Shown here: piece by piece, positions 766-52,981 of the stretch
How positions within the stretch are numbered: position 1 is the first letter of the stretch
Layout: every line of letters begins with the position of its first letter
Source of the DNA: Rhizophagus irregularis
Taxonomy: Eukaryota; Glomeromycota; Glomeromycetes; Glomerales; Glomeraceae
Assembly (NCBI RefSeq): GCF_026210795.1
Contig: NC_089446.1
Coordinates: 2,075,001 to 2,139,000 of the forward strand
Reading direction: 5' to 3'
Length of the DNA: 64,000 bases
Position numbers and translations under genes: made by a program
Notes under the pieces: model-generated
Database searches by the model: none
What the model was told of the DNA's origin: nothing
Seen by the model: only the letters and a program-made list of their open reading frames with translations

Positions 766-2700
766 TTAATGAATATTTTTAAGCGTTTCTTCATTATTGT
801 TGTAGTAATACTTTAATTCATTCACATATAATTTTAAAATATTTTCGATATCTTCACCTGCTGGAATTATATCTAAAGCACGTAATTCTCTGAGACGAAA
901 TTGTGCAACGTGACTATAATATCCATTGTTTTGTTCAGCAGCTTTAAAATAGAATTTAATGGCCTCTTCAATATTTTCTTCCTTTCTTCCTATTTGTCCT
1001 CTTTCATAAGCTTCACCAAGAAATGTTTGACCCATAACTAATCCATTTTCCGCTGCATATTTCAACATTCGAATCCCTTTCATTTTTTCATTTTCATCTA
1101 TACCATCTTTATTAATTAAGATTCTTCCAAGTTTGGCTTTTGCATATAGATTATTTTTATCAAGTTGTATGGCCTTCTTAAACCATTTTTCTGCTTCCTT
1201 TTCATCTTTAATTTCATCATCACTTTCATACAGTAATCCAAGATGGTATGCGGATAGACTATCTCCTAATTCGCAAGATTTTTCATACCATTTTATTGCT
1301 ATGTTTAATTTTTTTCTAGATAATTTCTTAATATTAAAATCATTTGGTCTGGATAATTTAATAAAATTTTTCCATTCAAAAGGTTTTATAACGTAACTAC
1401 TATGATATATTATTGCCATGTTTCTCATTGCTATTCTGGCTAGTTCTTTACTTGTTACTTCACTATCTATTGCTTCTTTATTTACAGATAGTTTCTCCGT
1501 TGCTTCTTTGTCTGCACCTGAATCATCTGTTGCTTCTTTATAATCATTCGTTACTTTTTTGTCTGCAGTTGCTTCTTCTGTTACATTTTTGTTTGTAGTA
1601 GATTCTTTTGTTATGATTTTACCTATAATCATTTCTTTCATTGTAGTCGTTTCCTCTGTTGCTTTCTTTCCTGTAGTCCCATTTTTTTCTGTTGTTTCCT
1701 GTTTTACAATTACATCTATTACTTCTTTAAACAATTTTTTAGCTTTTTGTGGATTATAAAATGACTTACTATAACCAATAGAATACAAATACCCTAGACA
1801 TAGTTTTGCTTCTATAGATCCTAATTTTTCAGCTTCTTGACACCATTTTTCGGCTTCTTTATACCATTCTTCAGATTTTGGGTCCAAATCTGTAGAATTT
1901 GAATAATTCTCTTTAATTCCTAACATATAATATCCAAATAATGTCAATTTATGAATAAAACCATCTTCACTTATTACATTTTCTTCTAATTCTTTTAATT
2001 TAATATCTTTATATATATCCATATTTCCACTTTTTTTGATTAATACTTTATAAGTTCCAAGTCCTTTCATGAGTGTACCATTTATTAAATGTTTAATGGT
2101 ATTATCCCGCATCCATTCAGGAAATTCATTAAATTTTATTCCAGTCCATCCTGTACCAGATAAATTTTTTTTACTTTTACCAGTAATAATAAATAATGAA
2201 ACAATCTTATTATTAAACGGATTAAATGGTGATTCTTTAATTTTAGTTAAAACAAGCCGTTTTGCTTTTTCAGGATTTTCTGATTTTTCTTCGTGTAAAT
2301 CGATTCTAGCCGTAGATAAAATAATTTTTGGTATGGATAATTCCTTATTACTAGGAATCAAACATTCATAATAACCTAAAAAATTATCCTCTAATCTTTT
2401 TTCTTTTTGTTTAGCCATTAAATTCTTAAAATCATTACTAAAACTTGGCGAAACCTTATTTAATTTATTTTTAACTGATGAAACAAATTGTTCTTTTTTT
2501 CTTTTTATGGACATACTAATACTAAGTTTAGATACAGAATATGAGAGAGATTTTATTGAAAAATCTACGGTTGAATTAGTTTTTGTTTTAAATGATATGA
2601 AAGATTCATTTTCAAGACTTATAGAATCAGGAGATTCAATATCAGAACTTGAAGAAATTTTCGGTTCAATATTTTTATTTTTTGACTTTCTTTTAAACAT
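766..2700 (-). CDS. Sel1-repeat (TPR-like) protein
   Basis: Predicted 644-residue, intronless protein with Sel1-like repeats, the alpha-helical scaffold family that assembles complexes. Repeat-like helices with A-x-G-L/A spacing lie at about residues 277-335 (EAEKWCQEAEKLGSIEAKL) and 467-600 (AIKWYEKSCELGDSLSAYHL, then a further AAENGLVMGQTFLGEAYERG unit). The two groups are separated by a low-complexity Thr/Lys/Glu stretch (about 333-420) built from degenerate EAT-xx-K-xVT words. The N-terminal 110 residues are basic and Ser-rich. The frame extends 16 codons further upstream but begins there with TTG, so I chose the ATG at 2700. An A13/T7 tract lies just 5' of that ATG. There is no signal peptide or membrane segment. 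Sel1 proteins, often fused to kinases, are expanded in Rhizophagus; no kinase domain is visible here. The function is unknown. Confidence 0.8.
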   Translation of the reverse strand: MFKRKSKNKNIEPKISSSSDIESPDSISLENESFISFKTKTNSTVDFSIKSLSYSVSKLSISMSIKRKKEQFVSSVKNKLNKVSPSFSNDFKNLMAKQKEKRLEDNFLGYYECLIPSNKELSIPKIILSTARIDLHEEKSENPEKAKRLVLTKIKESPFNPFNNKIVSLFIITGKSKKNLSGTGWTGIKFNEFPEWMRDNTIKHLINGTLMKGLGTYKVLIKKSGNMDIYKDIKLKELEENVISEDGFIHKLTLFGYYMLGIKENYSNSTDLDPKSEEWYKEAEKWCQEAEKLGSIEAKLCLGYLYSIGYSKSFYNPQKAKKLFKEVIDVIVKQETTEKNGTTGKKATEETTTMKEMIIGKIITKESTTNKNVTEEATADKKVTNDYKEATDDSGADKEATEKLSVNKEAIDSEVTSKELARIAMRNMAIIYHSSYVIKPFEWKNFIKLSRPNDFNIKKLSRKKLNIAIKWYEKSCELGDSLSAYHLGLLYESDDEIKDEKEAEKWFKKAIQLDKNNLYAKAKLGRILINKDGIDENEKMKGIRMLKYAAENGLVMGQTFLGEAYERGQIGRKEENIEEAIKFYFKAAEQNNGYYSHVAQFRLRELRALDIIPAGEDIENILKLYVNELKYYYNNNEETLKNIH

Positions 2701-3524
2701 TTTTGCTAAAGAAAAAAAAAAAAATTTTTTTGGAAAATTTGTTTTCAAACGAATGAATGAAATTCAATTTTTCTTTTAATACAAATTTCCAAATTTAACA
2801 CTTTATTAACCTTAAAGGGGAGGGATTGCGGAGTTACGGAAATTATAATTCGATTAATTGGTAAAGATCGGTGCTTTTAATGTAACAAAAAAAAAATTTC
2901 AGTTTTTAATTCAAGTATTACCGTTTTGCTGCGGTCAAGATAAAGTTATTTTAATTTAACGCGTTATTGTATCTATAATATTTGAGTAACCAATAAATTT
3001 AATTATTTATACTGTATATGCTGTTTTATTATATTATCATTAGCATGCGATTAACTTTATTAAATTCTTGAATTTTTATTTATTTATATAAAAGTAATCA
3101 TTTTTTTAATAAAAAACGAGATCGGCAGTTTTTAAGATTGTCGATAGCAGTCATCAAGTCGAATTTATTTTATTTTATTTATTTATTTATTTATTAAAAA
3201 ATCCGTAATTATGTTTTAATATGTATAAGTAAATATATTAATGTCTAATGTTTTAAATTTTGCAAAGATAAGCCGCGTAAAAAAAAAATATGGTATTATG
3301 TATGATTTAAAAAATCTTATCAAACCGAATTTTTACTTAATTTGTACTGAGCATTTGTTTGTTACTAATTTCTAAAATGGTATTAATGTTCGTATTACTA
3401 TTTTTTTTTTAAAAAAAAAAATATAATATTTATCTTACAACAATTACACTTGACCCATGTTTAAGACAAAAATTCTATTAAAGCGCATATATTTCAAATT
3501 TATCCAAAAATTTACGGTTAAAAT
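2701..3524. other. intergenic upstream of the Sel1 gene
   Basis: No gene seen. It contains a short run of tttat repeats near 3170-3195 and a T10/A11 dyad tract at 3401-3421, like those upstream of other genes here. Confidence 0.5.
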
Positions 3525-5612: not shown

Positions 5613-8600
5613 ATGGATGGTAATAATATAGAACAATATCACTATATAGCGGTAAGCCCATCTGGTGGAGAGATCGCAACACTCGATCGTAATGCCCACA
5701 AATTAGTAATTTGGCATGTTACCGAAGGAAATGCAATAGAACACAGATCTACATATCCGTTACGACATAATATTACGGAAAATAGTATCAATTGGTCTTT
5801 AGCTATTTCGGATGAAGATTCTGATGGAAATACATTGATTGCGCTTTCTTGTTTTAATTTCAATAATTTGGAAGATGATGAAAATGAAAATTCTTCACCA
5901 TTAACGCCATTAACGGAGGTCATTGCAGCTTCTGAAAATGATATTTCGCAAGTAAATCCGTTCTCTTCTAGTTCAACTGAACGATTAGTAAATAATGAAG
6001 CTTCAACTAGCGATAACGCGAATTATGAAGGTATTATAAATTATTTGAGTTCCATCGAACTACGTACTACTCGAATAGTATCAATTTCATCAGGATTAAA
6101 AAAATGGCCTGAGATCGAAGGTTTTTACGGATTTTTACAATTCTTTAAAGGAAGTACGTTGCTTACTATATCAAATAATTTTGGAATTATAAGAATATGC
6201 AAAGATGATTCAAAAGATTTATCAAGTGGATCTAAATACATTCATAATCTTTTAACCAGACAAACTAGATCAAGAACTATTGATTACCACAATAGATCAG
6301 ATGATTACGAAAAGAAAAGTTATGAAATAATCGGATATCCTAATAATTTTGTTGAAAATCTTGAAATTATGTATGAAGAGGAACAAATAAATTTCATTAA
6401 AAATTCTATTATGTGTGGAAAATTGATCATTCAAAACGAAGAAAATAATTTAGAAATGTATAATTTATTAAGCAAAAATATGGAAATGTTATATTATCAT
6501 TCCAAATTTCAAACAGAATTAACAAATAATATTTTAGCTATTTCAAAGAATGCAAAATTATTAGCGGTTACGATCAATAAAAATTCAGTGGCATTGTATT
6601 TAAATGAAAATAGTTTAAATATTGCATGTAAGGAATTTTCAATGATTGATGGAAAAATAATTTATATGACATTCTTTAACGATGATGAGAAATTGTTATT
6701 ATTAGAGAAAGATGAGACTAAAAATAATTTAATCATTTGGAATATTTTTGAAGATACTGAGAAAATATATTCATTTGATAATCAAAGATTTCAAATTTTG
6801 GATTTATTTGGTACTATAGCATATATTGATAATTCTCGAGATATAAATGATAATCAATTTATTAAATTATTTGATGAAGAAAATCCAAATGAATTTGAAA
6901 TAAGAAATAATGACGAAATATTAATGATTAATTTATTTGAAGTACTTGAATCATTAGAATTATCAGAAATATATAATACTAGAGGTTATGACCAACATGA
7001 AAGAAGAAAGAAGGATACTGAACCATGGCTTGATTCAGATCATTATCAAACATTCCGTTGGCTTGATAATAACGAAACAACAAGAATTTCATATGGATTT
7101 TATACGATTCAAATTTGGAAAAATAACGAATTAATTTATATTTATTCCGCTAATTATAATAATGTGCAAGAAAGTAGTGAACCATTGAATGACAACAATG
7201 TTAATGAATTTGTCAATGGATGCTTTACAACAGAACACGTAAATGATGCATATAATAGTTTGATCTTTTTTTGTAATTTGAAGTTATCAACAATAAAAAT
7301 TAAAAAACTTAAAGTTGATGAATTCATTGAAAAAACAAAAAGAATTATTCATAATGTTATTAATAATAATCCAAGTCTTTGGAGGTTATTAGATGTCAAA
7401 TATAATTTAACGGAAAATCTTATTCGTAGTCAATCGAATGATATTATTGAACTAATTCTTAATTCAACTGAGGAAAATACTAAATTACATATTCCTCAAC
7501 TTTATGATTGGAATGGACGTAAAAAAACGAGACATGAACTATTAATTGCTTTGGAAAATAATAATATTAGAATTATTCAACGACTATTAGATTATTATTC
7601 TAATAATGCGATGGACAATGCAGGATGGATGATTACTTTAACTCAAGCATTACCCAAAATAAGCGAAAAATTCCCTGAACTTATAAAAGAATTGTTTAAT
7701 AATCCAGTATTTTATGAGAAGAAAATGCATTTAGCAAAATCTAGGATTAAAACAATCTTATCGTCAAATCCTTACTCTACATTTATTGTAGATACAAGAT
7801 TACCTACGAAATATAAACTTAGAGATAAAATTCCGAGAGATTTAAATGATAATCCAATTGAGATTGAAATATATATGATACCTTTACCGGATTTTAATGA
7901 ATTCCTAGAAGGACGTAAACAAACCATTAATTGTCCTTTTTTCAAGTTGGTGGCACAAAAAAATTTAGATCTATTTTATAAGAAAAATTCTACTCTTGAA
8001 GCCACCGTAAGGTTTAATTGGAAAGTTCATGTTTTCCAATTTATGATAAGATTACTATTTTATATTGTTGATTTTATTATTTTTAATGCGCGTTTAATTT
8101 TTATTTCTTATTTTATTGAAAAGAGAGCCGAATTAAAAGTAATTCTATTAAACATATTTCATCTTTTATTTCATTGTATTAAGTCTTATTTCAAGATGGT
8201 TGATTTACATATTTTAAAAGATGTCAAACCAACAAAGTATCAACTCTTTTATGGACTTTCCAATATTTTACAATTATTAACCCTATTTCTATTCGCTTTT
8301 ACCAATTTTTATAATCTGAATGATTCAATACTCTTAGGAGTATCATTAAATTTTATTTCAATTACGATATTAATTGTGTGGATAGAATTGGTAAGAATTT
8401 AAAATTTCAAAATTAATGTATGATAATTATAACCATTATTAATTTATTATTTTTTCATAATTAAGTTTTTATTTTTCAGATTTAATTCCGGCAATTATTA
8501 ATTTTATTATATATATTTTATTTTATGAAAAAATTCATTAACATAATTCTTATTACTATTCATTTTAGTTGTTGGGAAATATATTATAATTATCGCTTAT

Positions 8601-9454
8601 CTGGTTTCAACAATTATTCCTTATTTTCTTACATTGATGATAATGATTGTTGGGTTTAGTTTCTCCTTGTAAGATTTATATTTACAATTTGTTATTTAAT
8701 TTTAGAATATTATATTATATAATAATATATATTAATGTCCTAAATTTCTTTTAGTTTTGTTATTTTTACTAGCGCGAAAGAATTAGGAATTGGACCCGAA
8801 GGAGAGAAATTTATTTTTGTTGAAACTGGTTCCGGTACAAGAAATTATTCGTATGCATATATAGAAAAAGAAACAAATACACCTAATTTTCTTGAAACTT
8901 TGGAAATGGTTTATCTTTGGTTATTTGGAAGCTGGGCGAATGTACAAGATTGGAATTATATTAGTGTTAAAATATTGGCTATAGTTGCAAGTTTCTTTTT
9001 AATTTTGATCATGACAAATATTTTTGTGGCATTGATGACGTAAGCAATTTTTATAACAATTATGTCAATATATATCAGATATATAATTTAAAAATTAACA
9101 TGAATTTATTATTGGTTTTTTTTTAGGGATGATATTAATAGGGCAATAAAATACAGTGAAATAACATCTTTTAAATATAAGGCTGATTTCATTCTAGAAT
9201 CTTATCTTTACCCTTTATTTGTAATAATTGAGAAATTTTACTCTAAAAGAAAAAAAGAATTTACTTTTGAACATACTTTTTATTATCAACCAACTTTTCA
9301 TTTATTACTTGATAGATACATTTTTTATATTAGAACTGATAGAAAAAGTTGGAAAACGGAAATTTCTAAAGGTACAGATGAATTAATTGAAAATATAAAT
9401 GAAAAAGTTAGAAAATTAGATGAAAAACTTGATAGATATATATGTAATTCATAA
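5613..9454 (+). CDS. WD40-like / TRP-like ion channel protein (paralog A)
   Basis: Five exons by splice sites and phase: 5613-8390, 8466-8490, 8569-8668, 8755-9039, 9127-9454; 1171 residues. The N-terminal half has beta-propeller-like strands near residues 10-45, 305-345 and 350-400 (KLVIWHV and LIIWNIF are WD-type strand ends). A helical, ankyrin-like region covers about 590-720. Hydrophobic segments near 804-835, 876-902 and 906-930 precede the S5-like VGKYIIIIAYLVSTIIPYFL, a pore-helix-like FLETLEMVYLWLFGSW (about 1014-1029), and S6-like ISVKILAIVASFFLILIM. The last ~30 residues form a probable coiled coil (DELIENINEKVRKLDEKLD). This is the layout of TRP-type cation channels with a large cytosolic sensor. 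Exon 2 is only 25 nt; the next intron starts with GC rather than GT. A polyadenylation-like AATAAATAAA lies near 9508. The channel assignment is by pattern; the ion and the stimulus are unknown. Confidence 0.72.
8466..8490 (+). other. 25-nt microexon of channel gene A
   Basis: Flanked by AAG upstream and a GC donor downstream. It codes for FLFFRFNS plus one base that completes a Val codon with exon 3. It is needed to join phase 0 of exon 1 to phase 1 of exon 3; joining exon 1 directly to exon 3 gives a stop after six codons. The second paralog has an equal-length exon at the same place, which supports it. Confidence 0.75.
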
Positions 9455-10177
9455 ATCTGTTGTATTTTTCTCCTTGTAATGAATCAACATATACTTATTT
9501 GAAATATAATAAATAAACAATATTTAATAATTTATGAATTATATCTTAATTTTTCATACATGGAAATCTGGTGACCGTAAAGGTTATGTCAAATGACTTC
9601 TTGTGAACATCTGAAATATCATTGAATCGAAGGTGTTACTTTTCAACGCCTGCGGCCTGCCACAGATAATTGTGAATACAGAAATCAATATAGCGAGGTT
9701 GCTGTTTTGGATCTCAAATTCGTTGGCACATTACACCAATTCGGCATTACACAGATTTATCATATGTTAATACGAATGTTTGAACACTATTTCACTATTA
9801 CGCCTCCTTAAATATCCCTACACTTGAGCTTGATTTTGAATAAAAATAAACATAAACATTAAATGTGTATATATATTAATTTAAAAATGTTTTTATATTA
9901 TAAGATCACATTACATTCCATATTTCTATATATCATAACAGGAAATAGTGATGGTTTCTATATAACATCACCCTTCATCACGCCTGGCAACGTCTCATCT
10001 TTACTAGATGTTTTAGTGACTCAATTTTTTATGGTGAATTTTGGCCAGGAAAATTCATAATATATCAAATAACTATAAATTAAACTAATTAAATTAAATA
10101 AACTTTACTATTGCATACCATAATATACTAAAGAGTAATAAGTAATGCCTTAGGACCTTTGATCAACAAACGTCTCA
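9455..10177. other. intergenic between convergent genes
   Basis: Shared 3' flank of channel gene A and the inositol-type transporter. The 65-codon plus frame at 9863-10060 has no visible domain, and I take it to be chance. Confidence 0.5.
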
Positions 10178-12738
10178 TTAGAATAACCCTTGAATTTCTT
10201 CAAGAGATAACCCAGCAGTCTCAGGTACCATGAAATAAATAAAAAACCAACTAAAAATCATAAATATAGCGTATAACCAAAATGTTCCCGTTGTAGTTAT
10301 TATTTCGGTCAACGGAAGGAAAGATACTGTAATTAATAAATTAAATAACCAATTCGTTGCTACAGGAATTTAAAATAATTTATTTTAATAAATATTTAAT
10401 GTGGGGCAATATATATATATACTCGGGTAAACATACCTGTTCCTATTCCTGATGCTCTACCGCGTACATTTAATGGGAATATTTCACTCTGTATTAACCA
10501 AGGCGCATGCCCTAATCCCAAAGCATAAGCTAAATTCAAAATAGAACCGTTTAGTTTCACTCTCAAACGTTTTACAAACAATCACTTAAAATTACTAAAT
10601 TATGCACTCACCCATGACATAAATGATCAGACTAACTAAAGTAAACCAAGTATAAATGGGCTTCAAAGATGGACAATTCTCATAAAATTCTTCATCGGTA
10701 GAATTATCATTCTCTTGTTTATTTCCATTTAGTGGTGAAAAGAAATTAATTTTACCAATGCTAGTTGCTGTATTTTTAGTGTTTCTGGGTAAACAAGTCC
10801 CGCCATCACGTTTAGAAAATCCACACCTATCATCTAATAAGCAAGCACCACATTTGTCTCCATAATCTATGCAATTTGGTTGTTTGGGTGTGAATCCTGT
10901 TGTGAAATAAAATCCTAAACCTAATAAAAGTAATCCCAATATTGTAGCTATTACTGTATATATAAGTATTTTACGTCGACCCACTCCGTCGATTATATAT
11001 AATGCAACTCCTAAAGTGTTAATGAGAGAAAATCAAGAAAGTCAAGGAGAAATTAATTTATTAAAAAAGAGGTTACAAAATAACGTAATTATGTATTACC
11101 TGTCATAAGGAAATTAGTCAGGGAAACCACAAGTGAAAAGACAATAGCATCTCTAATATTAACGAATCCGGCCATTTTCATTATGGTTCCCTAAATTATA
11201 AAGTAAAATCAGTATACTTCTCTCATTAAATATTTAAAACTTGTTATCAAAACTTACACCATAATACATTGCAGTATCAAATCCAGAAACTTGTTGAATA
11301 GTTTGTAGTCCACATGCAATTATGAGTGGTTTTAAATTTGGATAATGAAATAATTGTTTATATGATCCTGCCTCATCTACCGCTATTGTCTCATAAATTA
11401 TATTAATTTCTATGATATAACAGAGAGAATTAAGATTTAATTAGAAAAAAAAACACCACTCCATTCCTACCTAGCAATTAAAAATAGGCACTTTTTATGT
11501 ATGAATTACCTTTATCTATAAAATCATGTGAAGAGTCTGGATATATTTTTTTTAAAACACTTTTCGCTTCTTCATTTTTCCCTTTTTTAATAAGGAATCT
11601 AGGACTTTCAGGTACAATTGGCATAACTACAATATGTAATAACGAATTCGGGCAAAGTTAGAATGTTTTTATATTCTATTAAATTCTAAAAAAAAATACT
11701 TACTGAATAATTGAATTAAAGGAGGAATTCCAGAGATACCAAACATCCATCTCCACCCTCCAAACTCTACAAAAACAATTCCTATGAGATAAGCGATAAC
11801 TTGCCCACCAGTAATGAATAATACATTCAATGTTACCAATCTTCCCCTATATTTTCTTGGGGAAATTTCACTGATATAAATGGGAACTACCATCGAAGCT
11901 AATCCTACTCCTACGCCAATTATCAACCTTCCAGTAACTAATAACGAATACGTATTTGCTATTGATAATATTATTGCACCACCTAAAAATATTAATGCTG
12001 AAAATATTGACGTTATCCATCTTCCGACCCAGTCCGATAAATATCCTAGTAAATCAATTGGAGTAAATTTTTGAATTTGATAATTAAAATTCAATCAATA
12101 ATTAATTTACCAGCTACAGCTCCGCCAAATACAGCTCCTAACGTTGTGGCTGTCAATTTATTTAAAAATTAATTAATATTGCATGTAAAAAATTTATTGA
12201 TATATCAATATTTGGTTAATTAAAACACGTTACTTACCGCCAACTACTATTCCCTTTTGTAATGCAGTCATGGTAAAATCTTGTTCAAGCAGTAACATAG
12301 CACTACTTATAACTCCAGTATCATATCTAAAAAAGAAGTAGTAATTTAGTTGATCTCATTAAACATTAATATCACTCCCTTAAAAGAAGAAAAATTTAAC
12401 TACCCAAACAAGAATCCACCTATAGCAACGACTACAGCAATGAAATAAACGTATAAAGCAACACCTGCTGTATCTCTATCTTTTGATATTTGTTCGGTAT
12501 GTTCAAAATCTCGTGAAGAAATTTGTCTTGGAGAGGAAGCATTGCTTGATTGTTCTAATTCTTCCTCTTCTTCCATAAGCGGCTGATAAGAGGTATCCAG
12601 CTAAAAAAAAAAATTTAAATTCAACATCAATTACTAAAATTACCAAATTATCACAAATAGAGTTTGTGTTGGATTTAATTTTTTCTTTAAGATAAGAGAA
12701 AGAATTTACGTACATACGTTTAAATTCAGTTTACTCAT
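10178..12738 (-). CDS. proton/myo-inositol-type MFS sugar transporter
   Basis: Eleven exons, all in phase: 12718-12738, 12404-12600, 12238-12326, 12111-12149, 11704-12045, 11510-11626, 11258-11409, 11100-11190, 10612-11010, 10437-10529, 10178-10359; 573 residues. Sugar-porter signatures occur in order: GGFLFGYDTGVISSAMLL in helix 1, GYLSDWVGRW in loop 2-3, GRLIIGVGVGLASMVVPIYI, the helix-6-end PESPRFL, GLQTIQQVSGFDTAMYYGG in helix 7, DGVGRR in loop 8-9, PWLIQSEIFPLNVRGRASG in helix 10, and PETAGLSLEEIQGLF at the C-terminus. Loop 9-10 (about residues 384-460) is long and Cys-rich (NC-x6-C-x2-C-LLDDRCGF...TCLP), as in HMIT/SLC2A13 and plant INT inositol transporters, where it is called PSI-like. 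It probably imports myo-inositol or a related polyol with protons across the plasma membrane. Loop 2-3 has GRW instead of the usual GRR. One base of uncertainty remains at the 5' edge of exon 5. Confidence 0.88.
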
Positions 12739-14221
12739 TTTTTATAAGTTATAGCTTATGACAAAAATAGCTGGGGCTTAGATTATGGCTTTCAATAAAA
12801 TATGAATTCGAATCTGTTAGCTTTTTTAATTTGAAGAATTTTTTTTTGTGATAAATGATCGTTTTCATCAAATATATAATAATATATTTTGAAAATAATT
12901 GAAGAATTAAAGAATTATATTATTAAAGAAATAAACTTGAAGAAAAAACCCTTTCTGAATTAGATAAATTATTTTTTAGATAGATGATTGATAAATGAGT
13001 CCTATCTCACATGATCTTTCCGAAAAGGGAGTGTACTTTTTCAGTTAATACATGGCTATGGCCTATGGGTAACTAGTAACTAGTCCTAATGTGGTATGTT
13101 GTTATGCTGAAATATTTGGGTAGAATTAGTATTGACCAGATAATTCTGGTAAAATTTTCCGAACATCTTGTCATCGAAAACACACATGTGCTATGTTTGT
13201 AAGATGACATATCTAATATCTGATATGGTTATTTAATTTTGATCTACCAATTCATCATCAAGTGATTGAATATAATACAATAAGAAACGTCAAATAATGA
13301 ATTGATAGCAATTTCTTAAGGGTAAGGTCCCGTAGGGGATGAATTTCCAAATTCTATACACGTATATTTGTTGTCAAACATGTAAATGTTGTCTTACTTT
13401 TATTTGTAATAGTTTTGGTTATACTACTCTTCTAGTAATAAAACAAATAATAAATAATAGCAATTTCTTAATATAAATGTTCATCTATTAATGCTAGAGA
13501 CAAATTTATTACTATTCAATACGTCTTATTATGTTACTATGCTGAATTCAATGAGTTGTTACATCTTTCTATGATTACTAATGTGCTAATATTCTTGACA
13601 TATTCCCAGTAAAATATATAATTGTTCATCCCTTGTAATATTCATTAATACTCGGCGAATTTTTTCAATAGATAAATATCAGCTGCGGAATTATTACGAA
13701 AAGTGATCATGTGAACATATAAACTATAAATGTTATTTGTTCGCTAGCAGTGGGTTTCTACGATTTCTATAATCTATTTCCAACTTCTTTTGTAATTCTT
13801 ATTATTTCATAACAAATCACCTGATCACACTAATTCGAAAACCACAATAATTAATTAATTCCGAAATTTACACAAATAGTACCAGTACCCAGATATTGTA
13901 GGATATTGTAGGATAATTTTGGCCGCAATCTATTCCTATTTATAATAAGCGCAGTTAAAAATAGCTTTCGTATTTGACCAAAATTAATTAGTCACAAGGT
14001 ACAAGATTCCAAATCAAGTTAATTTTTAAAAAGTATTTGGGCGTCATGACGTTCATCTCGTGATCTATATACTAACTAATTTACCATAAACAATAAATAG
14101 ACTTAAATTAATTTCCTAAAATATTAAATTAAATATAAACACCGTTTTTTTTTTAAAAAAAAAAAAAATTCCGGTCCTTTTACTTTTCTTAATAATTTTG
14201 AGGCGCAGTATTATATAGTAT
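12739..14221. other. intergenic between divergent transporter and channel gene B
   Basis: It must carry both promoters. A T10/A14 dyad tract at about 14145-14168 sits 54 bp before the ATG of channel gene B. No other gene or repeat is seen apart from a triple GATATTGTAG-like run near 13898. Confidence 0.5.
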
Positions 14222-17200
14222 ATGGCTTCAACAAGTGGTAACAACGTAAAACAACGCTATAATATAGCTATAAGTCCATTCGGTAAAGAGATCGTAATTT
14301 TCGATTATGTTTCACATATTTTAAAAACCTGGCGGTTTACTCAAGATATGATAGCGATTCCCACTAATTTTGAATGTGAATTACGAGAAGATATTGGAAT
14401 TAAAACAGAAGAGATCAATTGGTCTTTAGCTATTTCGGATGCAGATTCTGATGGAAATACATTGATTGCACTTTCTTGTTTTAAGTTTATTAGAACGAAT
14501 AATGATAGTTCCAAAGAAATTGATATAATAACCAATAATAAAAATGAAAATGAAATAAATGAAATTAATATGCAACAAAAGTCAACTAAGTATGATTCAA
14601 AATATTCTAATGAGAAAACTGCTCTTAATGACGAAATTTCTGATGAGAATAATATAAATAATATAGCCATGAAAATATTAAATTCGATTCAAATAAATTC
14701 TACTCGAATCGTATCAACATCAGGGAATAAAGTATGGCACAAGATCAAAAATTTTTATGGATTTTTACAATTTTTTCAAGGAAACATGATATTAATTTCA
14801 AATCATTTAGGAATTGTAAGAGGGTTATGTATTGATAATAAGTCAGATATTGATGATTTAACAAATCTTTATAATAATAATTACACTTCATCAAAAAGAA
14901 GATTAAAATTAAAAAATGTGAATGTTTATGAAAAATATTGGAAACCAATATATATAATAGAGAAACCATCTTATATGGATAATGATAAGAGGAAATCAAA
15001 ATCAAAATATGCTAGATATTATGAAATATGTTTTGATAGAAAAATTGATAAACCTCTTTTTATATATCAAGATTTATATTATCCTAGAACATTTAATAAA
15101 CAATTTAAAAAGCATATAATTAATTATCATGAACAATCAGAATCTTATGATAAAGAAGAGAAGAAATTTTATGAAATATTTGGATATCCTAGCGATTTTA
15201 TTAAAAATCTTGAAATTTTGAATGAAGAGGAACAATTAAATTTCATTAAAAATTGTGTTATTTGCGGAAAATTAATTATTCTTAACGAGGAAAATAATAT
15301 TGAAATGTATAATTTATTAAGTAAGAATATTGATATGTTATATCATCATTCCGATTTTCAAACAAAATTAACAAATAATATTTTTGCAATTTCAAAGAAT
15401 GCAAAATTATTGGCAGTTACGATTAGTAACGATTCAATAGCATTATATTTGAATGAAAATAGTTTGAATATTGCGAATAAAAAATTTACTAGTAATTCAA
15501 TAATTAGTAGAAAAATAATCTATATGACATTCTTTAATGATGATAATAAATTGTTATTATTGTTAAAGAAGGAGGATAAAGAGGATAAGATCTTAATCAT
15601 TTGGAATATTTTTGAAGATTCTGAAAAAATATATTCAATCGATGAAAAAGTTCAAATAATGGATTTATTTGGTATTATAGCTTTTATTAATAACTCTGGT
15701 AATATTCAATTACTTGATGAAAAGAATCTAAGAGAATTTGAAATAAAAAATAATGACGAAACTCGACAAGAATTATTAAAATTATCGGAAAGTATTACTA
15801 GAAATTATAATAAACGTGAAAAAAGAATAATGGATAATAATATTTTTGATATTGAACCATGGCTTGATTCAGATCATTATCAGATATCTTATTGGCTTGA
15901 TTATAGTAAAACATTAAGAATTTCATATGGATTTTATACGATTCAAATTTGGGAAAATGATGAATTAATTTATATTTGGTCCGATTACAATATTGATAAT
16001 TATAATTTATCTAACAAAATATTAACACAATATATTGAATTATTGGATATATCACAAGATGATAATGGGAATATTACTTCAAAATTCAGATGTATTGATG
16101 TTGAACATGAATTACAAATTAGTAAACTTGTCAATAACGAATTTTTAACAAAAGATCACGCAATTGGTGCCTATAATAGTTTGATCTTTTTTTCCAAGTT
16201 AAAGTTAACAAATATATCATATAAACTTAAAATCGATGAATTAATTGAACAAACGAAAAGAATTATTTATAATATTATTATTAAGAAACCAAATCTTTGG
16301 AGGTTATTAGACGTTAGATATAATTTAATGGAAAATCTAATTTACAACCAATCAAATGATATTATTAAATTCATTCTTAATTCAACAGAAGAAACTAAAA
16401 AGAATGCTAAACGTAATCAGAAATTACATATTCCGCAACTTTATGATTGGAATGGGAATATAAGATCGAATCATGAATTATTAATTGCATTAAAAGAAAA
16501 TAATATTGAAGTTATTCAACAAATTACAAATTATTATTCATGTAATGCTATAGAAAATACAGGATGGATGATTACTTTAACTCGAGCATTACCAGAACTA
16601 AATAAAAAACTTCCTGAATATGTAATTAAATTATTTAAAAAACCAGTGTTTTCTCAAAAACAAATGCATCTGAAAAAATCCAGAATTAAATCAATCTTGG
16701 CAACAAACCCATCTTATAATATATTTATTGTGGACACACGATTACCTTCATTAACGAAAAAAGAATATCAAAATCAATCCTTTTCTCTCAGAGATTCAGA
16801 ACATTCTAATGATTATTTAAATGATAATATTAAAATACGTATGATACCTTTACCAGATTTTAACAAATTTGCAGAAATAAGTGGAATTAAGCAAATTGGT
16901 TGTAGTCCTTTTTTTGATTTGATGTCAGAAAGGCATTCAAATTTAATTTATAACAATTCCACAATCGAAACTATTATAAATTTTTATTGGAATACTCATA
17001 TTTTTAGAATAACTTTACCTAAATTAATATTATATGTCATATATTTTATTGGTATTAATGTACATTTGTTACTTTTTTCTTTTTATCCTATATACAGAAA
17101 CATTTCTAAACATTCTAATATTGGTGGTACCCTTGCATCTTTACAAAGTTTAAAATTTTTTAATTTTATGGGCTCAGAGACTAAACGAACATTTTATTAC

Positions 17201-18594
17201 TATATTTTTCATTCGTTCAGTTATGCTTTGCTAATAATAACATTATATTTATTTGATGAGTTTAGTGATTTAAACATAGTCGTGATTTTGGTTACATTTA
17301 CAATGTTAATTTTATGGGTAGAATTTGTAAGTATATTTTCTTAATATAATTTGTTATATTTTTTGTATCATAACTAATAATATTTTTGATATAGTTTTTG
17401 TTCTTAAGAATAATTCCAGGTAAAAATTAAATTAGATCTCTCCAAGCCAATTCTTTGTTTAACATATCGTAATTTTTATTTATAATTCTGGCCAAAATTT
17501 ATAATTCTGGCCTAAATTATATATATAATTTTCCTGAACTAAGCAAGGATGAGTAAACGAAGAATTGAGTTGGAGTGGCCTTATTATCCTTATTATTATA
17601 ACAAAAAAAATTTTATTTATTTATTTTTACTAATATATTTATTATATTATATTATATATATTAAAGTTGTTGGCGAATATATTTTTATTATAACCTTCTT
17701 GATATCAAAGGTTATTCCATATTTTCTTACAATGATGATAATGGTTTTTGGTTTTGGCTTCTCAATGTAAGAATATTATTATATAATTATATATATATTT
17801 ATTTATTTATGTGTTATTGTGTTGTTATTTATACTAAATAAATACTTTATTAATTATTTAGGTTTATAATATTTAGTAATGCTGCAATATTAGGGATTAA
17901 ACCACAAAGTGATGAATATCAATTCTCAAATATAACAATACAACAAAAAATTGATTCCCCTAATTTTTTTGAAACATTGGAAATGGTTTATCTTTGGTTA
18001 TTTGGAAATTGGGATGATGTTAAGAATTGGGATTATATTCCTATTAAAATATTAGCTCTATTAGCAAGTTTTTTTATTGTTATTATTATGCAAAATATAT
18101 TTGTGGCATTAATGGCGTATGTACTTTATTGAATTATTATTTTATATGTGTTTTGAATTATCAATTATTAACATAACATTTTTTTTTTTAATAGTGAAGA
18201 TATTTCTACAGCGAGGAATTATAGTGTAATAGCATCTCTTAAATCAAAAACTGATTACATTATACAAGCTCAATATCAAAATTATTATTATCTTCGTAAT
18301 TTTGGATCGTATTTCTATTTAAGTACAGAATCTTCTTTTAATTTTAGGTTTTATCATTTAACAACTTTTAATTCAACTTATAATAGACACATTTTTTATA
18401 CTGTAAATAGAGATAATATAAAAAATTGGATAACAATCGATGATGATACTACTTCAAATGATTCGGAATTTTCTGGAAATATTAATGAATTAATTGAGAA
18501 AATATCTGATAGGCAATTATTTCTTGAAAATGAGGTTCATAAATTAAATGAAAAATTTGATAAATTATTAGTGTTATTAAGTAAGAAACAATAG
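14222..18594 (+). CDS. WD40-like / TRP-like ion channel protein (paralog B)
   Basis: Five exons matching paralog A: 14222-17326, 17395-17419, 17667-17766, 17862-18116, 18195-18594; 1294 residues. It shares with A the opening YNIAISPFGKEIVIF, the propeller-like half, the conserved PWLDSDHYQ and YGFYTIQIW blocks, the LWRLLDVRYNLMENLI helical block, and the membrane part: S5-like VVGEYIFIITFLISKVIPYF, pore-like FFETLEMVYLWLFGNW, S6-like IPIKILALLASFFIVIIM. The C-terminus ends in a coiled coil (INELIEKISDRQLFLENEVH). Compared with A it has an extra Lys/Tyr-rich stretch of about 80 residues near residues 215-300 and longer Asn/Glu-rich linkers. Exon 2 is again 25 nt. Intron 2 is 247 nt against 78 nt in A. 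The two genes are probably old tandem duplicates now separated by the transporter. Ion and stimulus are unknown. Confidence 0.72.
17395..17419 (+). other. 25-nt microexon of channel gene B
   Basis: Preceded by a branch-point-like CTAATAA and ATAG, followed by a GTAAAA donor. It codes for FLFLRIIP plus one base. It has the same length, phase and place as the microexon in paralog A. Confidence 0.8.
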
Positions 18595-23698: not shown

Positions 23699-25946
23699 CA
23701 TTCTACCTGTTTTATATAATCGTATTCCACGTTTTTTCAGTAAATGTGGTATATTATATTTTTATACATAAATATTACAGAATTTATAACCTGAAAATTA
23801 TTGTGTAAAAGATTCACGAAGTTTTTATAAAAATTATGAAAATATAATGGATAAAATTTTTACGGGATGTTATTAAGAAAGTAACTGTTAGCCATTTTAA
23901 TGTCCAATATGGAGAATGTTAAAAATTTTTGCTAATTCAAGTTATTAATAATTTTTTTTTTATATACTACCTGAGATCTTACTTAGATTTTGCTAAAAAC
24001 AAGTCAGTAACAATACTGTATAAGCATACATTTTTACATCTAGAGTATTCTTAGTCAAAAAATATACTACTCTAGCTAAGAAAAAGTGTTTCTAGTTAAT
24101 CAATTGCTGATAACAAAAGCTAATATTTTTTATTTTAATTAACAGGAGGATGATTACCTTTTTAAAGAAAATCGTAATTTTTATTAAGTATATTGAGGTG
24201 TATGTAATCACATTTCACACAAACTAATGTTATTACTGGATTACAAATACAAATATAAAGTGTACAGTGTATTCATAAGCTTGGTCCTAGAGTTAAGACT
24301 AAGATATTAAGTGTATTAGGAAAGGTGTGTTCTTATGGAAATTATATTTATAGAATTAAAAATTACTACTAAATGGGTAATATTACTTTTACAGAGTTGA
24401 CTATTAATTGTCAAACAAATGAAATTTACAATATACTACTATATTTGTATAATTATATAATTAGTTAGTCAATATATGCGGAAAATCATTAATTCTAGAA
24501 GAATTCTAGAATTTTAGATTTTTCTGTCAATCCATTGTTAAAAATATTAGATAATTCGTTTCCTTTTTTAAAAAACAAGTTAAAACCGTAGTCTATTTAT
24601 TCACATAATCGCTATATCAAACTTATTTTAATTCTTATTGGATCCTTAAAAGAATAGATTTCAAACCAAATTTGATTTTTCGTCATTTTAAAGAATTCTT
24701 GAATTCTTTTTTCTTTCGATAATGACTGAAACTTTAAATCATGATCTTCATTATCATTTTGGCTACAATGTTTATTTACAGAATATTCATGTACAATATG
24801 AATTATTTCATATTGTATATATATGCTAAGCTTTTGTAGATTCATTTTAGAATTAGGGGATTGTAATACAAGGAGGACATTTTTCTCTTCACTATAAATG
24901 GCTACGATTGATAATGCCGACCAAAAAGATTTAAATTTTTAAAGCGGTTTATATCAACTGAATGTATTATATGCAATTATTAAATGGAGTATGTTATAAT
25001 GAAATTTTATTATTACTTTAGATTCATCTTCAAAAACCAAATTTCTATAATGTTGAATTTAATATAAGATATACAATATATAATAATTTTATTTTAAATC
25101 TTTATCATGAAAATCAAATGTTTTTGAATCTTAGCAAGTTTTGATTGATATAAAAAAAAACCCAAATATTTGTATCATTAGTATATCATGTGAATTAAAC
25201 CTTTCAACTATTACCAAATACTGCAAGGTTTCTTTTAAATCGTTTTCAAATATGATCTACGTTCATATAAATAATCAAATAAGCCTTTGCAGGAGTTTTG
25301 ACAATTTAAAATGGTTATTAAAGAATAAGAAGCCAATTATATGCCTGATTCCACATAAAAAAAGTACTTTAAAGAAATAAAAATAAATTGTTAATGTTTG
25401 ATTAACTGTAAAGTTTTCTATTTAATTTCTAATCATATAAAATTAGGATGATAATTTCACGTGAAATTATTACTATATAATAAACAGAAATTAATTTAAG
25501 GTTGCTACACAAGCTGAGTTAATAAAATGATATTTAAAATTCTTTTATATGTTCTTTTTTTCTGGTTTTTTTTAAACTGATCAAATATTGCATCATTAAA
25601 AATTAAAATAGAATCTATTATTCACTATTTTTAGTGAACAAGTTGCATTTGTTGAAATCGAAGCAAGTTAAAAAACTGTTATTCGTGGAAACTGGTTTTT
25701 TTTGCACGTTATTTCGGAGGATTTGTTCCGGGAGATATTTTCTAAATCAAGAAAATTTTTACTTCATCTATACTATATTTTAATATATATTTGTTCTTTT
25801 TTTTTTGCCGAATATATTGGATATATTGATATTATAATTTAACACTAAAATAGTAGGTATGTATATATCAAAACATTATAAATAAACCTAAATTTTCTTT
25901 ACCCTTGATTTTCAAAAAAAAAAACATTAAATTTAAGGTTTATAAT
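23699..25946. other. intergenic, only weak open frames
   Basis: Upstream region of the first HMG-box gene. A 77-codon minus frame from a true ATG (24612-24845) has mixed charged composition and might be a small gene, but nothing is recognisable and no homology can be argued. A frame at 25141-25380 is similarly unsupported. Confidence 0.4.
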
Positions 25947-26282
25947 ATGCAAGAAATTATTGAGGCGAACCGCAGAACATTGCGGGAAAATATAGATCAG
26001 AATAGATTGGAATTTTTTCCACCTCCAACTTTGGATCCTGTCATTACTCTTGATCGTTTAAGCTATGTTAATCGACGTCATCCCAGAAATAAAAGTGTTA
26101 CTGGTTTTGGTATTTTAAGATATTACGTCTCATTACAAGGGCAAATTATAAACTGTGATGAGGCTGTAGTCGGTAGGGTAGCAACTGAAGTATGGAAATC
26201 TGCTACCGCGGCAGAAAAAAGAGATTATACAAATTTATCGAACCAGGTTAAAGCATTAATCGCTAGCCAAAATAGAAGCTAA
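25947..26282 (+). CDS. HMG-box (MATA_HMG-like) protein
   Basis: Predicted 111-residue protein. After a short helical N-terminus the core reads LDRLSYVNRRHPRNKSVTGF, then GILRYYVSLQ, and ends with an HMG-like third helix VATEVWKSATAAEKRDYTNL. The Trp-Lys-x-Ala-x(4)-E-x(3)-Y pattern is the usual end of an HMG box that bends DNA. Rhizophagus carries a large family of small MATA_HMG proteins, and this fits that type. The frame opens upstream with TTG; I chose the ATG at 25947, which follows an A-rich leader. It is likely nuclear and DNA-binding, with no known target. A second intact member lies at 49.6 kb and decayed ones at 28.9, 31.8 and 44.3 kb. Confidence 0.65.
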   Translation: MQEIIEANRRTLRENIDQNRLEFFPPPTLDPVITLDRLSYVNRRHPRNKSVTGFGILRYYVSLQGQIINCDEAVVGRVATEVWKSATAAEKRDYTNLSNQVKALIASQNRS

Positions 26283-33577: not shown

Positions 33578-35030
33578 TCAAATTAAAAGAAACTTTGTTT
33601 TTTTAATCACTCCTTCATCAAAATATTTTTTTATGATCATTTTAAAATCATCTGTAAAATATTTTTCCTCATAAGTTATAAAAAATGAGCGGTTTTCTAC
33701 CTTTCCAATTCTCAAAAAAATCTATCAGACCATCAAGAGTAAAAATAAAATTTGCACAAAAAGTGATTTCGTGTAAAGTTTCTGGGGAAAATTTAACTAT
33801 AATTTTTAATATTTCATCACATTCGAGTTCATCCTCATTATTTATTGATAAATTCAACTTTATTAACCGCGAACAATTTATTAAAATTTCTTTTATTCCA
33901 TGTAAATCTTCAAGTTCAACTTCAATGATTAATCTCTCAATATTTGGACAATTTGTAGAAATTGCTTTAATTAATTTTTTAGTATAATTAGGATCTTGAT
34001 TACACATTCGGCATATATCAATGTCTAAAATGTTTCCATTTGATTTCTCAATCAAATCACATTCTATGGAGAATGGTAAAAATACGGTTTCAAGATATTG
34101 AAGATTCGGAAAAGATGCAAGAGATAAAGATACTTCCCATTCACTTTCCCTAAATATATCCATCACATTAAATGCACTAAAATTTTTAAGTTCCAAATGT
34201 TGTAAATTTATTAACGATGGAAGAAATTTAGGTGAGAGTGAAATGATCCATGGTTCTATAGAAAATTTTCTTAATGTACTAGCTTTTCTTTCAATTACTT
34301 CGCTTAATCCTAAACATTGTTTTTCAAAACTTTTAAAATGTAAATATAATGATCGTAAAATTTTTTGGGTATCAATGAACCAAATTAATCCTGGAATATC
34401 GTCATAGCATTCAAATATGGATAATTCTTCAATATTTTGACAAATTTGCGACATTGCAAATAATTCTCTTGAAGTAACAAAATCAAGATCCATTATTAAG
34501 GAACGAAGTTGAGAAAAACAGGTTGGTGCTCCATGAAATTGAGACAAAGGTTGTGTTGTTTGCCAATTAAAATATTTTATGTCCTTACAATTATTTATAA
34601 ATAATTTATAAATTTCTTGTTCCAACAGATATTTTTTGCCTGTTTCTTTATATTTATTAAATCCATCTTCTTTTTTAATTAAGTTATTTATCATATTATT
34701 AATGAAATTTGGTGGAACTTGTGATGAAAAGCTAATATAGTTGAACAATGGTTGGTTTGAAAATTCTTGTATAGTAGGTAATTCAATATTATTATCCAAT
34801 AAAAGTTTTTTTGAAAATGTTGGTAATAAATAAAATATTAAGTTATAAAGTTTACGATTAGAAAGTGAATCCCAGTTACCAATATCAAATTCGAAAGGAA
34901 CTTTCCATAATATTGGCATAGCTGTACGACACCAGTATCTATTTACCAAAATACATGAATATAGAGATGATGCTTTCTCTCTCAAATCATTAAAAATAAT
35001 TATAAGACAATCTGCGATTAGACGTGACAT
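33578..35030 (-). CDS. F-box / LRR-like protein, 3' end frameshifted
   Basis: The open frame runs 33669-35030 (453 residues) from ATG. An N-terminal F-box (residues 1-45: LIADCLIIIFNDL, then SLYSCILVNRYWCRTAMPIL) would bind Skp1 in an SCF ubiquitin ligase. The rest carries irregular leucine-rich repeats (LRSLIMDLD, NIEELSIFE, LRSLYLHF, LQHLELKNF) for substrate binding. It is about 70% like its neighbour at 35318-36781. The reading stops at FYNL after KGRKPL, where the neighbour continues about 40 residues. Downstream, in the next frame, the lost tail is still visible (YFTDDFKMIIKKYFDEG) down to a stop at 33578. The switch falls in an A6 run at 33680-33685, so one extra base there explains it. 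It could be a real truncation or a homopolymer sequencing error. The target is unknown. Confidence 0.8.
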
Positions 35031-35317
35031 TATTGTATTCGTAAAACGAAAGAGAAAAAAAGATAGGATTTTAAAAAATAATTTTTTTCTTTATCAGACT
35101 CTAAATTTATTTTGCTAAAGGCGTGTAACGATATTCATATGATCTGTTGATCAATACATAGGTTTTTGATCCATAATCGGGTTATAAAAGCAAAAGATAA
35201 ACATGATTAATAATAGATTTATTTTCATATTTTGACAGGTTTTTATTTAAAAATACGTTATTAACGCAATTAAGTAAACAAATGCAAGTTTGGCGATATG
35301 CCGACAATTTATAATTA
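35031..35317. promoter_or_regulatory. short spacer between tandem F-box genes
   Basis: 287 bp containing the 3' end of the upstream copy and the whole proximal promoter of the downstream copy. AT-rich, with no distinct motif I can assign. Confidence 0.35.
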
Positions 35318-36781
35318 TTATTGTTGTACGAATGGAACATCCTCGTCTAGTAAATTTTCTTTGATTATTCCTTCTTCATAATATTTTTCAACAATCCTTT
35401 TGTATTCCTTATCTATGTCACCAATAAATTTCATAGTAAATGCGAGTGGTTTCTTATTTCTCCAATTTTTAAAAAATATTTCCAACCCTTCAATTGAAAA
35501 TTTCCAATTTTCATTAAAAGAAAATTCATATAAAGTTTTTGGTGAATAATTTGTTAAAATTTCTAATAATTTATCACAATTATTTTTTTCTTTGTTATCT
35601 GTTGAAAGATTTATCATTTTTAATTGTGTACAATTTAAGAGAATTTCTTTTATTCCATCTAAATTCTCAAGTTCAGCATTAATAGTTAAGTTTTCTATCT
35701 TTGGACACTTTTCAGCGATCGCTTTAATTAATTTATTGGTATATTCTCGATTTTGATCAAATGTATGAAGTATATTAATTTCTAAAATATTTCCAATAGA
35801 TTTTTCGATTAACGCATGATATTCACAAGATGCTAAAATTGCGGTTTTAAGGTATTGAAGATTTGGAAAAGAAGATATTAACAAATGTTTCTTCCATTCA
35901 CACATTTCTATACTTTCGGTTTTATATGTTTGTTCGTTAAGTTCTAAATATTCTAATTTAATTAATGATGGAAGAAATTTGGGCGAGAGTAATATAATAT
36001 TTGGTCCTATGCTAAGTTTTTTTAGTGTAGCAGCTTTTCTTTCGATTACTTCACTTAATTGTAAACATTGTATTTTAACACCTTTAAAATATAAACTTAA
36101 AGATCGTAAATACTTTTGAGTATCAATAAACCAAATTAATCCTTCTGGAATGATATTACAACAACCAGATATGGATAATTCTTCAATATTTTGACAAATT
36201 TGTGTCATTGTAAATAATTCTTTCGGATTAATCATTTGTAGATCGATTATTAAGGAACAAAGTTGAGAAAAACATGATGATGCTCCTTGAAATTGAGATA
36301 AAGGTTGTGTTGTTTGCCAATTAAAATGTTTGATGTCCTTACAATTATTTATAAATAATTTATAAATTTCTTGTTCCAATAGATTTTTTTTATTTTTTTC
36401 TTTATATTTATCAAACCCAACTTCTTTTTTAATTAAGTTATTTATCATATTATTAATGAAATTTGGTGGAACTTGTGATGAAAAGCTAATGTAGTTGAAT
36501 AATGATTGGTTTGAAAATTCTTGTATAGGTGATACAATATCTTCATCTAATAAAAGTTTTTTTGAAGATGTTGGTAATAAAGAAGTTATTAAATTATAAA
36601 GTCTATGATGAGAAAGTGAATCCTCGTCACCAATATCAAATTCAAAAGGATCTTTCCATAATATTGGCATAGCTATACGACACCAGAATCTATTTACCAA
36701 AATACATGAATATAGAGATGATGGTTCCTCTATCAATTCATTGAAAATAATTATGAGACAATCTTCGATTAGTTGTGACAT
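35318..36781 (-). CDS. F-box / LRR-like protein
   Basis: 487 residues, intronless, ATG start. The F-box covers residues 1-46 (LIEDCLIIIFNEL, SLYSCILVNRFWCRIAMPIL). A block of Asn/Lys-rich helices (FINNMINNLIKKE) follows, then about eight degenerate leucine-rich repeats up to NWKFSIEGLEIFFKNW, and a C-terminal helix KRIVEKYYEEGIIKEN. The expected role is the substrate-recognition subunit of an SCF E3 ligase; the substrate is unknown. It lies head-to-tail with the gene at 33.6 kb, 287 bp upstream of it, a clear tandem duplication. It keeps the full-length tail that the neighbour has lost. Confidence 0.85.
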   Translation of the reverse strand: MSQLIEDCLIIIFNELIEEPSSLYSCILVNRFWCRIAMPILWKDPFEFDIGDEDSLSHHRLYNLITSLLPTSSKKLLLDEDIVSPIQEFSNQSLFNYISFSSQVPPNFINNMINNLIKKEVGFDKYKEKNKKNLLEQEIYKLFINNCKDIKHFNWQTTQPLSQFQGASSCFSQLCSLIIDLQMINPKELFTMTQICQNIEELSISGCCNIIPEGLIWFIDTQKYLRSLSLYFKGVKIQCLQLSEVIERKAATLKKLSIGPNIILLSPKFLPSLIKLEYLELNEQTYKTESIEMCEWKKHLLISSFPNLQYLKTAILASCEYHALIEKSIGNILEINILHTFDQNREYTNKLIKAIAEKCPKIENLTINAELENLDGIKEILLNCTQLKMINLSTDNKEKNNCDKLLEILTNYSPKTLYEFSFNENWKFSIEGLEIFFKNWRNKKPLAFTMKFIGDIDKEYKRIVEKYYEEGIIKENLLDEDVPFVQQ

Positions 36782-37929
36782 TATTTTGATATTTTGTCTA
36801 ACTGTGTGTAATAATTGTAATAATTTAATAATTGATACGCAAACTCAGGATTATGGGTTTTATGTAGTTTAGCCCTGTACTGCGGTGAATGATCAAAATA
36901 TGTGGTTATTGTTGTAATTATTGTTATTGTTGACGATCAACTGACATTATATTTCATATGTAAAAATTATTTAATTAATGACAATTAAGGACATAAAAAC
37001 AAAGCATTTTTAAATAGGAAACAATAGTTCATAAGTTATTACTGTAATTGTTTATTTCTTTCACTTTTATTACGTTATTATTTATTATTTATTTATTATA
37101 TTTTGATTCTTTATACGTTGTTTTGATTGTTTATTAGTAGTAAAGCCTTGGCGTATAACTTTAGAATTTTAATAAACATATTTATTTTATAAATAAAATG
37201 ATATAACATACGGATATAATACTAAATTCTCTCTTTTTTTTTTAATTCTTCGTAGCTTTGGTCAATATCTTTACTCGTATTTAATTATCCAAGATGATGA
37301 TGCTGGGCGAAATCGAAATATTTAGTCATTTTGACGAAACCGAAATATTTAGTAATGCAGGGGCCGTAAAATTATTTTTTTAAAAGACGAAATTGCCGAA
37401 ATTCAATATTCCATAAAATTTCCATGGATTTTTAATTATAATTATAATAATTACATAAATATAAATAATATTTTTTACCTGTATAAATTTTGGCAAGGGT
37501 GCATAAAATTTAAATTTATTATAAAAATTTACAATTTTACGCATTATATAAATTTACCTGAATGCACATATTTTTTTTTTTACGCATCCCTAATAATAAT
37601 AAAATTACTTATAAAAATGAAACTTTAAATAATACGTCTACAATATCCCTGTAAAAAAAGTTGTTCCGTTTTTTATTTTCCATCTTTTTTTCGTAAATTG
37701 CTCATATTTCCGGAATTAATATCCTTATATCATGAAATTTATCGAATTATTTACCTTTTCCGTGAATAGATCCGTGAAAGGCTCATTTTTGCGGAGTTTT
37801 TACAGAAATAACGGATAAAATTTTTTATGGGGTATTCTATAATAAAACAATGATAAGTTAGCAATTTTTCGTCATAAATATCAATTAACAATCCTATATA
37901 AATAAAAGTGAAAAGTAAAAACTCATATT
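36782..37929. other. intergenic with recurring GACGAAATT-type words
   Basis: No gene. Words such as GAAACCGAAATATTTAG and GACGAAATTGCCGAAATT recur near 37310-37410, and related ones near 39520-39670, bracketing the satellite and transposase relic. They could be degenerate ends of one large element, but I could not fix termini or a target duplication. Confidence 0.4.
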
Positions 37930-49625: not shown

Positions 49626-49976
49626 ATGTTAAAAATGAGTGTTATGGAAAGGAACCGTTTAATCCAACAATATGAATTATTTTTGACTATGATTCTCGAA
49701 GATAGACAGCAGGTTTTTCCCCTACCAATTAGAGATGTTGGTACCATGATGAAACGTTTAAGTTATGTTAATCGAAGAAGTCCCAGAAATAAAAGTGTAA
49801 CCGGACGTGGAATTTTGAAGTATTTTGTATCTTTAACATTACGAGATCGTAACGTTCATTCTTCCGTTATCGGGTTGACCACGGATTCTTTATGGAAAAG
49901 CGCTACATCACACGAAAGAGCGGAATACGTAATCATGTCGAAAGATTTGAATAAAAGAATGATGCGATTTAAATGA
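49626..49976 (+). CDS. HMG-box (MATA_HMG-like) protein
   Basis: 116 residues from ATG at 49626 (a second ATG, three codons on, may be the true start). The core MMKRLSYVNRRSPRNKSVTG, then RGILKYFVSL, and the third-helix-like LTTDSLWKSATSHERAEYVI match the gene at 25.9 kb. The LWKSAT-x-x-ER-x-x-Y pattern is the HMG-box end. Small, basic and probably nuclear. The promoter side contains a T12/A13 dyad tract at 49480-49504 and AT microsatellites up to the start. A DNA-bending role is inferred from the family; targets are unknown. Confidence 0.65.
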   Translation: MLKMSVMERNRLIQQYELFLTMILEDRQQVFPLPIRDVGTMMKRLSYVNRRSPRNKSVTGRGILKYFVSLTLRDRNVHSSVIGLTTDSLWKSATSHERAEYVIMSKDLNKRMMRFK

Positions 49977-52900: not shown

Positions 52901-52981
52901 TATATATAACAAATTACATCAAATCTAAACCAAGTTATAAAGTTTATTAGACTCAATTTTTGCGTATAAGAAAAAAAGAAA
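49977..52981. other. intergenic, no supported gene
   Basis: Contains an unusual G11 homopolymer at 50167-50177 and AT microsatellites at about 52878-52910 just upstream of the next F-box gene. Several short frames (50716-50916, 51103-51345, 51604-51946) lack any recognisable feature. Confidence 0.5.

Follow-up and report, generated by a model that had tools for sequence, protein, structure and literature searches.

Two five-exon paralogues in a Rhizophagus irregularis window

We analysed a 64,000-nucleotide stretch of the Rhizophagus irregularis genome (contig NC_089446.1, positions 2,075,001 to 2,139,000; hereafter the window), for which a preliminary description had proposed a pair of related large proteins, each joining a beta-propeller-like N-terminal half to a six-helix, TRP-like channel. 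Large open reading frames (ORFs) starting at positions 5613 and 14222 of the window, with 931 and 1041 codons from stop to stop, are followed by short downstream exons. Conceptual translation of the spliced genomic ORFs confirmed, at the level of gene models, two paralogous and intact five-exon genes on the forward strand: gene 1 (5613-9454), with a predicted product of 1171 residues, and gene 2 (14222-18594), with one of 1294 residues (Table 1). The proposed relationship held up, as the intron phases (0, 1, 2, 2), a 25-nt exon 2 and a 100-nt exon 3 are common to both genes, and the two sequences are 53.9% identical over 1116 aligned codons, none of which is a stop. Every alignment used in this analysis consists of these two sequences only. 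No third copy turned up in the window by tblastn, since all matches outside the two genes had E-values of 0.067 or higher. No relative at E ≤ 1e-3 was found among 282, 36, 82, 164 and 371 pattern-matching stretches of bacterial, archaeal and viral contigs, an absence that says little because of the composition of these collections.

Retention of any of the four introns, or skipping of exon 2 or exon 3, leads to an early stop in both genes. The 25-nt microexons are conserved between the genes and required for the reading frame. Since the junctions and the frame are shared by both genes, the genomic sequence makes it unlikely that the putative channel exons belong to a separate gene. Seven of the eight introns follow the GT-AG rule; the exception is intron 2 of gene 1 (8491-8568), directly after the microexon, which would be GC-AG. 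This donor bears on the possibility that decay has set in, or altered products arise, in either gene or in both, through failure to splice the gene 1 microexon, whose skipping stops the frame, or through loss of exon 4. Skipping of exon 4, whose length is divisible by three in gene 1 as in gene 2, would be frame-neutral and would cost the protein its pore and S6, so that a poreless product is conceivable. GC-AG introns are, however, a known minor class, and the remaining junctions are normal.

The ratio of nonsynonymous to synonymous substitution (dN/dS, Nei-Gojobori, gene 1 versus gene 2) was 0.53 overall, a rough value, like all those that follow, because the method is simple and the base composition is skewed. 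Within the N-terminal part it was 0.55 for residues 1-515, with 0.65 for a variable stretch at residues 84-262 and 0.43 for residues 263-515; the helical part gave 0.39 and residues 736-926 gave 0.53. The lowest of the seven regions measured was S4-S6 (0.31). Only the last 108 codons exceeded unity (1.17), and the C-terminal tails encoded by exon 5 diverge, unlike the remainder of the proteins. Outside the C-terminus, these ratios indicate purifying selection and two retained copies rather than decay. Although the high C-terminal ratio, the GC donor and the dispensable frame of exon 4 all point the other way, the stop-free alignment and the constraint on S4-S6 make decay or altered products, in our judgement, highly improbable.

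The membrane region is likely a TRP-type channel

The membrane region contains several hydrophobic segments; a simple hydropathy list does not resolve them into six, with ten entries at approximately seven places in gene 1 and five entries at approximately four places in gene 2, where neither S4 nor S5 appears separately. The pore-like YLWLFG-S/N-W motif of the preliminary description is present in both genes, as part of a conserved segment, PNF-x-ETLEMVYLWLFG-S/N-W, ahead of the last helix.

With the gene 2 membrane region as query, phmmer returned eight matches at E ≤ 10 in the PDB (177,635 sequences). Only two of them covered most of the query, and both are TRP channels: TRPA1 (7ykr, E = 0.04), aligned in register over 164 query residues into S6, and Chlamydomonas TRP1 (6pw4, E = 0.15, or 0.32 for its best stretch by itself), whose in-register alignment covers 175 gene 2 residues and likewise runs into S6. 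In the latter alignment, the LGN of TRP1 falls on the FGN of the gene 2 pore-like segment. The reversed gene 2 query had no PDB match at E ≤ 10, and the sole PDB match of the full-length two-sequence profile at E ≤ 10 was again TRP1 (E = 4.5). When hhalign compared the membrane profile with the TRPA1 and TRP1 segments, the probability was 90.7 and the score 47.1, against 20.4 for the best of 100 column shuffles and 14.6 for the reversed profile; this comparison is not independent, because its templates were taken from the phmmer search itself.

Several observations weigh against a TRP assignment. For a database of this size, the TRPA1 and TRP1 matches are individually non-significant, and the hhalign P-value of 1.2e-6 multiplied by the library size is approximately 0.2. 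Five of the eight phmmer matches, including the best of the list, were PPR chains (E = 0.026-0.72), whose scores are summed from many short repeats, and one further match was a chain named "subunit-g" (E = 0.19). Neither the gene 1 membrane region alone nor the two-sequence membrane profile matched any PDB entry at E ≤ 10, and for neither full protein did Pfam return Ion_trans or another channel family at E ≤ 10. Such results would be expected of a membrane protein of another kind, whether a different class of channel or no channel at all, with a likeness to TRP arising by chance. We consider this explanation very unlikely: TRP channels account for the only two matches that span most of the region, each following gene 2 in register into S6, and the reversed control was empty. 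The six-helix, TRP-like channel proposed in the preliminary description is partly supported, by these individually non-significant matches of gene 2, and found no counterpart in the searches with gene 1 or the membrane profile; for the pair, a TRP-type channel is likely from the predicted sequences.

A plausible propeller in the N-terminal half

The preliminary description had placed a beta-propeller-like domain in the N-terminal half. No propeller family exceeded its Pfam cut-off in either gene, and neither a WD40 nor an ankyrin family appeared in Pfam at E ≤ 10 in either. Gene 1 gave sub-threshold matches to two propeller-type families, RMC1_N (E = 0.037) and EML (E = 0.28); gene 2 gave none.

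Low-confidence structural models make a propeller plausible. The AlphaFold2 model of gene 1 residues 258-435 begins with two helices, after which come eleven strands, and a Foldseek search with it returned 1028 matches at E ≤ 10 (best E = 0.0063), of which the best 50 were all beta-propellers by name, mostly WD40. With the model of the whole of gene 1 exon 1, Foldseek returned 464 matches at E ≤ 10 (best E = 0.034), and the best 50 were again mainly propellers; among the matches listed were some apparent non-propellers, such as a Listeria protein and possibly a galactosaminidase. Entries were sorted into propellers and others from their names, which leave the matched chain unspecified in the case of several complexes (G-protein-coupled receptors, cilia, HOPS). 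The Foldseek tables do not locate the match within the model, and the comparison was made without a control model. Taken together, the Foldseek results lend weak support to a propeller, because low-confidence models can match at random and propellers abound in the PDB.

Other results count against a propeller. Confidence was low for both models, with a mean predicted local distance difference test (pLDDT) of 31 for exon 1, built from the two-sequence input, and of 46 for residues 258-435, where 67 of the 178 residues lie at 50-70; neither model had a Foldseek match at E ≤ 0.001. Comparison of pieces of the N-terminal half by hhalign detected no internal repeat, the scores lying under the shuffled null. 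The N-terminal two-sequence profile had no PDB match, and searches of the PDB with shorter pieces yielded nothing convincing: only a proline aminopeptidase (E = 0.97) for gene 1 residues 250-516, and only the kinesin KIF20A (three sequences, E = 0.66-0.89) for gene 2 residues 345-600. These negatives would suit a TRP-type channel without a true propeller, in which the N-terminal half is some other beta-rich or mixed domain. We regard that arrangement as unlikely, since the models of exon 1 and of residues 258-435, which overlap, both look most like propellers, and both sub-threshold Pfam matches of gene 1 are of propeller type. A propeller remains the most economical reading of the N-terminal part and, given the Foldseek neighbours of the low-confidence models, a plausible one.

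A blade-like pattern was also tried and set aside. Residues 1-520 of gene 1 contain it three times (reached by 4 of 1000 shuffles) and residues 1-600 of gene 2 twice (reached by 147 of 1000 shuffles), but it does not discriminate, because it also occurs three times and twice, respectively, in the remainder of the two proteins.

The helical part that follows (residues ~540-735) has an ankyrin-like rhythm by eye, without support from any search: the gene 1 helical part alone matched no ankyrin family at E ≤ 0.1 in Pfam, and the profile of this part gave nothing convincing in the PDB (only a "Maturation protein", E = 0.28). The single Pfam match of the gene 1 helical part, RHD3_GTPase (E = 0.1), was taken as chance.

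At the other end of the proteins, the preliminary description had placed a C-terminal coiled coil. Both tails do contain a heptad run, of 6 a/d positions; since 53 and 68 of 2000 shuffles reach a run of this length, it speaks only weakly for a coiled coil, and what is left of the claim is that a short one is possible.

Neighbouring genes

The window is AT-rich, with a GC content of 23-33% in 2-kb steps. The two genes are not adjacent: 4767 bases separate them, and a sugar-transporter-like gene lies in between on the opposite strand. One portion of it (10595-11032) has no Pfam match and encodes a Cys-rich loop reminiscent of the extracellular loop of animal HMIT-type transporters. Elsewhere in the window, a 664-codon ORF carries Sel1 repeats in its C-terminal half. 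Four long single ORFs have N-termini that are alike and weak F-box-like matches, all under the Pfam cut-off; they resemble the F-box expansions of these fungi. Two short ORFs share the motif YVNRR-x-PRNKSVTG and look HMG-box-like by eye; neither has a Pfam match at E ≤ 0.1. The low GC content and the Sel1-repeat, sugar-transporter and weakly F-box-like ORFs are in keeping with a Rhizophagus-like genome of the Glomeromycotina.

Table 1. Exons of the two predicted channel genes and other features of the window (positions are those of the window)
Feature	Position	Strand	Content
Gene 1 exon 1	5613..8390	+	926 residues; probable beta-propeller ~1-515, helical linker ~540-735, pre-S1, S1-S3 (low-confidence models)
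Gene 1 exon 2	8466..8490	+	25-nt microexon, S3-S4 region; following donor GC, not GT
Gene 1 exon 3	8569..8668	+	100 nt; S4, start of S5
Gene 1 exon 4	8755..9039	+	285 nt; end of S5, pore-like loop YLWLFGSW, S6; in-frame skip possible
Gene 1 exon 5	9127..9454	+	post-S6 region, C-terminal tail with short heptad run, stop codon
Gene 2 exon 1	14222..17326	+	1035 residues; layout as gene 1 exon 1, longer insert in first half
Gene 2 exon 2	17395..17419	+	25-nt microexon, S3-S4 region
Gene 2 exon 3	17667..17766	+	100 nt; S4, start of S5
Gene 2 exon 4	17862..18116	+	255 nt; end of S5, pore-like loop YLWLFGNW, S6; in-frame skip possible
Gene 2 exon 5	18195..18594	+	post-S6 region, C-terminal tail with short heptad run, stop codon
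Sugar-transporter-like gene	10595-12094	-	11669-12094 matches Pfam Sugar_tr (E = 1.4e-29)
ORF with Sel1 repeats	766-2760	-	Pfam E = 1.2e-16
F-box-like ORF	33669-35090	-	
F-box-like ORF	35318-36844	-	
F-box-like ORF	52970-54439	+	
F-box-like ORF	60381-61862	-	
Short ORF, HMG-box-like by eye	25857-26282	+	
Short ORF, HMG-box-like by eye	49581-49976	+	

Interpretation and comparison with known systems

With a probability of roughly two in three, we interpret the two genes as divergent TRP-type cation channels with an N-terminal propeller sensor, gated by a cytosolic ligand or partner. The first ~515 residues would fold as a beta-propeller and serve as a cytosolic binding platform, which the helical part would connect to the pre-S1 helix, while the S5-loop-S6 segments of four subunits would build the pore. 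When a cytosolic ligand or a partner protein binds the propeller, the linker and the post-S6 helix may shift, which would let cations, Ca2+ perhaps among them, through the opened pore. Fungi that live as obligate symbionts have to perceive and answer their host, and to our knowledge their cation entry channels are little characterised. If the interpretation is right, an expanded channel family that carries a distinct sensor would provide concrete candidates to test, and its gating design could be set beside that of the ankyrin-bearing animal channels. A broader proposal, which we put forward tentatively and at slightly less than even odds, is that arbuscular mycorrhizal fungi possess a class of TRP channels, expanded in their lineage, whose pore is gated by a WD40-like propeller acting as cytosolic sensor, either in place of an ankyrin domain or besides one.

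The preliminary description knew of no characterised fungal channel with this layout and considered the family to be lineage-expanded. The TRP expansion in these fungi is already known from two studies: R. irregularis has 32 TRPV-like genes with predicted Ca2+ permeability, which underlie an enrichment at the level of Mucoromycota (PMC10234402), and TRP-CC proteins (TCDB 1.A.4) seem duplicated in Glomeromycotina and Neocallimastigomycota (PMC8778642). A propeller-TRP layout, on the other hand, was not found in searches of an open-access library, which is weak evidence, nor in passages of PMC7935092. On the best reading, the two genes would be divergent members of the published Glomeromycotina TRP expansion with an N-terminal sensor not reported so far. 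Like the two predicted channels, the TRPV-like set of PMC10234402 is a set of TRP-like channels encoded by an arbuscular mycorrhizal fungus, and many of its genes bear neighbouring numbers; it differs in that the available text gives no domain layout. The TRP-CC family of PMC8778642 belongs to the same superfamily and probably the same lineage, but is treated in the accessible text as a family-level statement that leaves a propeller unmentioned.

On the structural side, WD40 beta-propellers such as Cdc20 and Hir2 lead the Foldseek matches to the model of residues 258-435, but differ in that no WD40 profile matches here and that the likeness, at Foldseek E-values of 0.006 and higher, comes from a low-confidence model. 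TRPA1 carries long ankyrin repeats before S1, and its structure (7ykr) aligns in register with the gene 2 membrane region but differs in the ankyrin domain, which has no match in either gene. Chlamydomonas TRP1 (6pw4, 6pw5) differs in being a 901-residue entry that is absent among the PDB matches of the N-terminal searches, but it aligns in register with gene 2, the LGN/FGN pore segment included.

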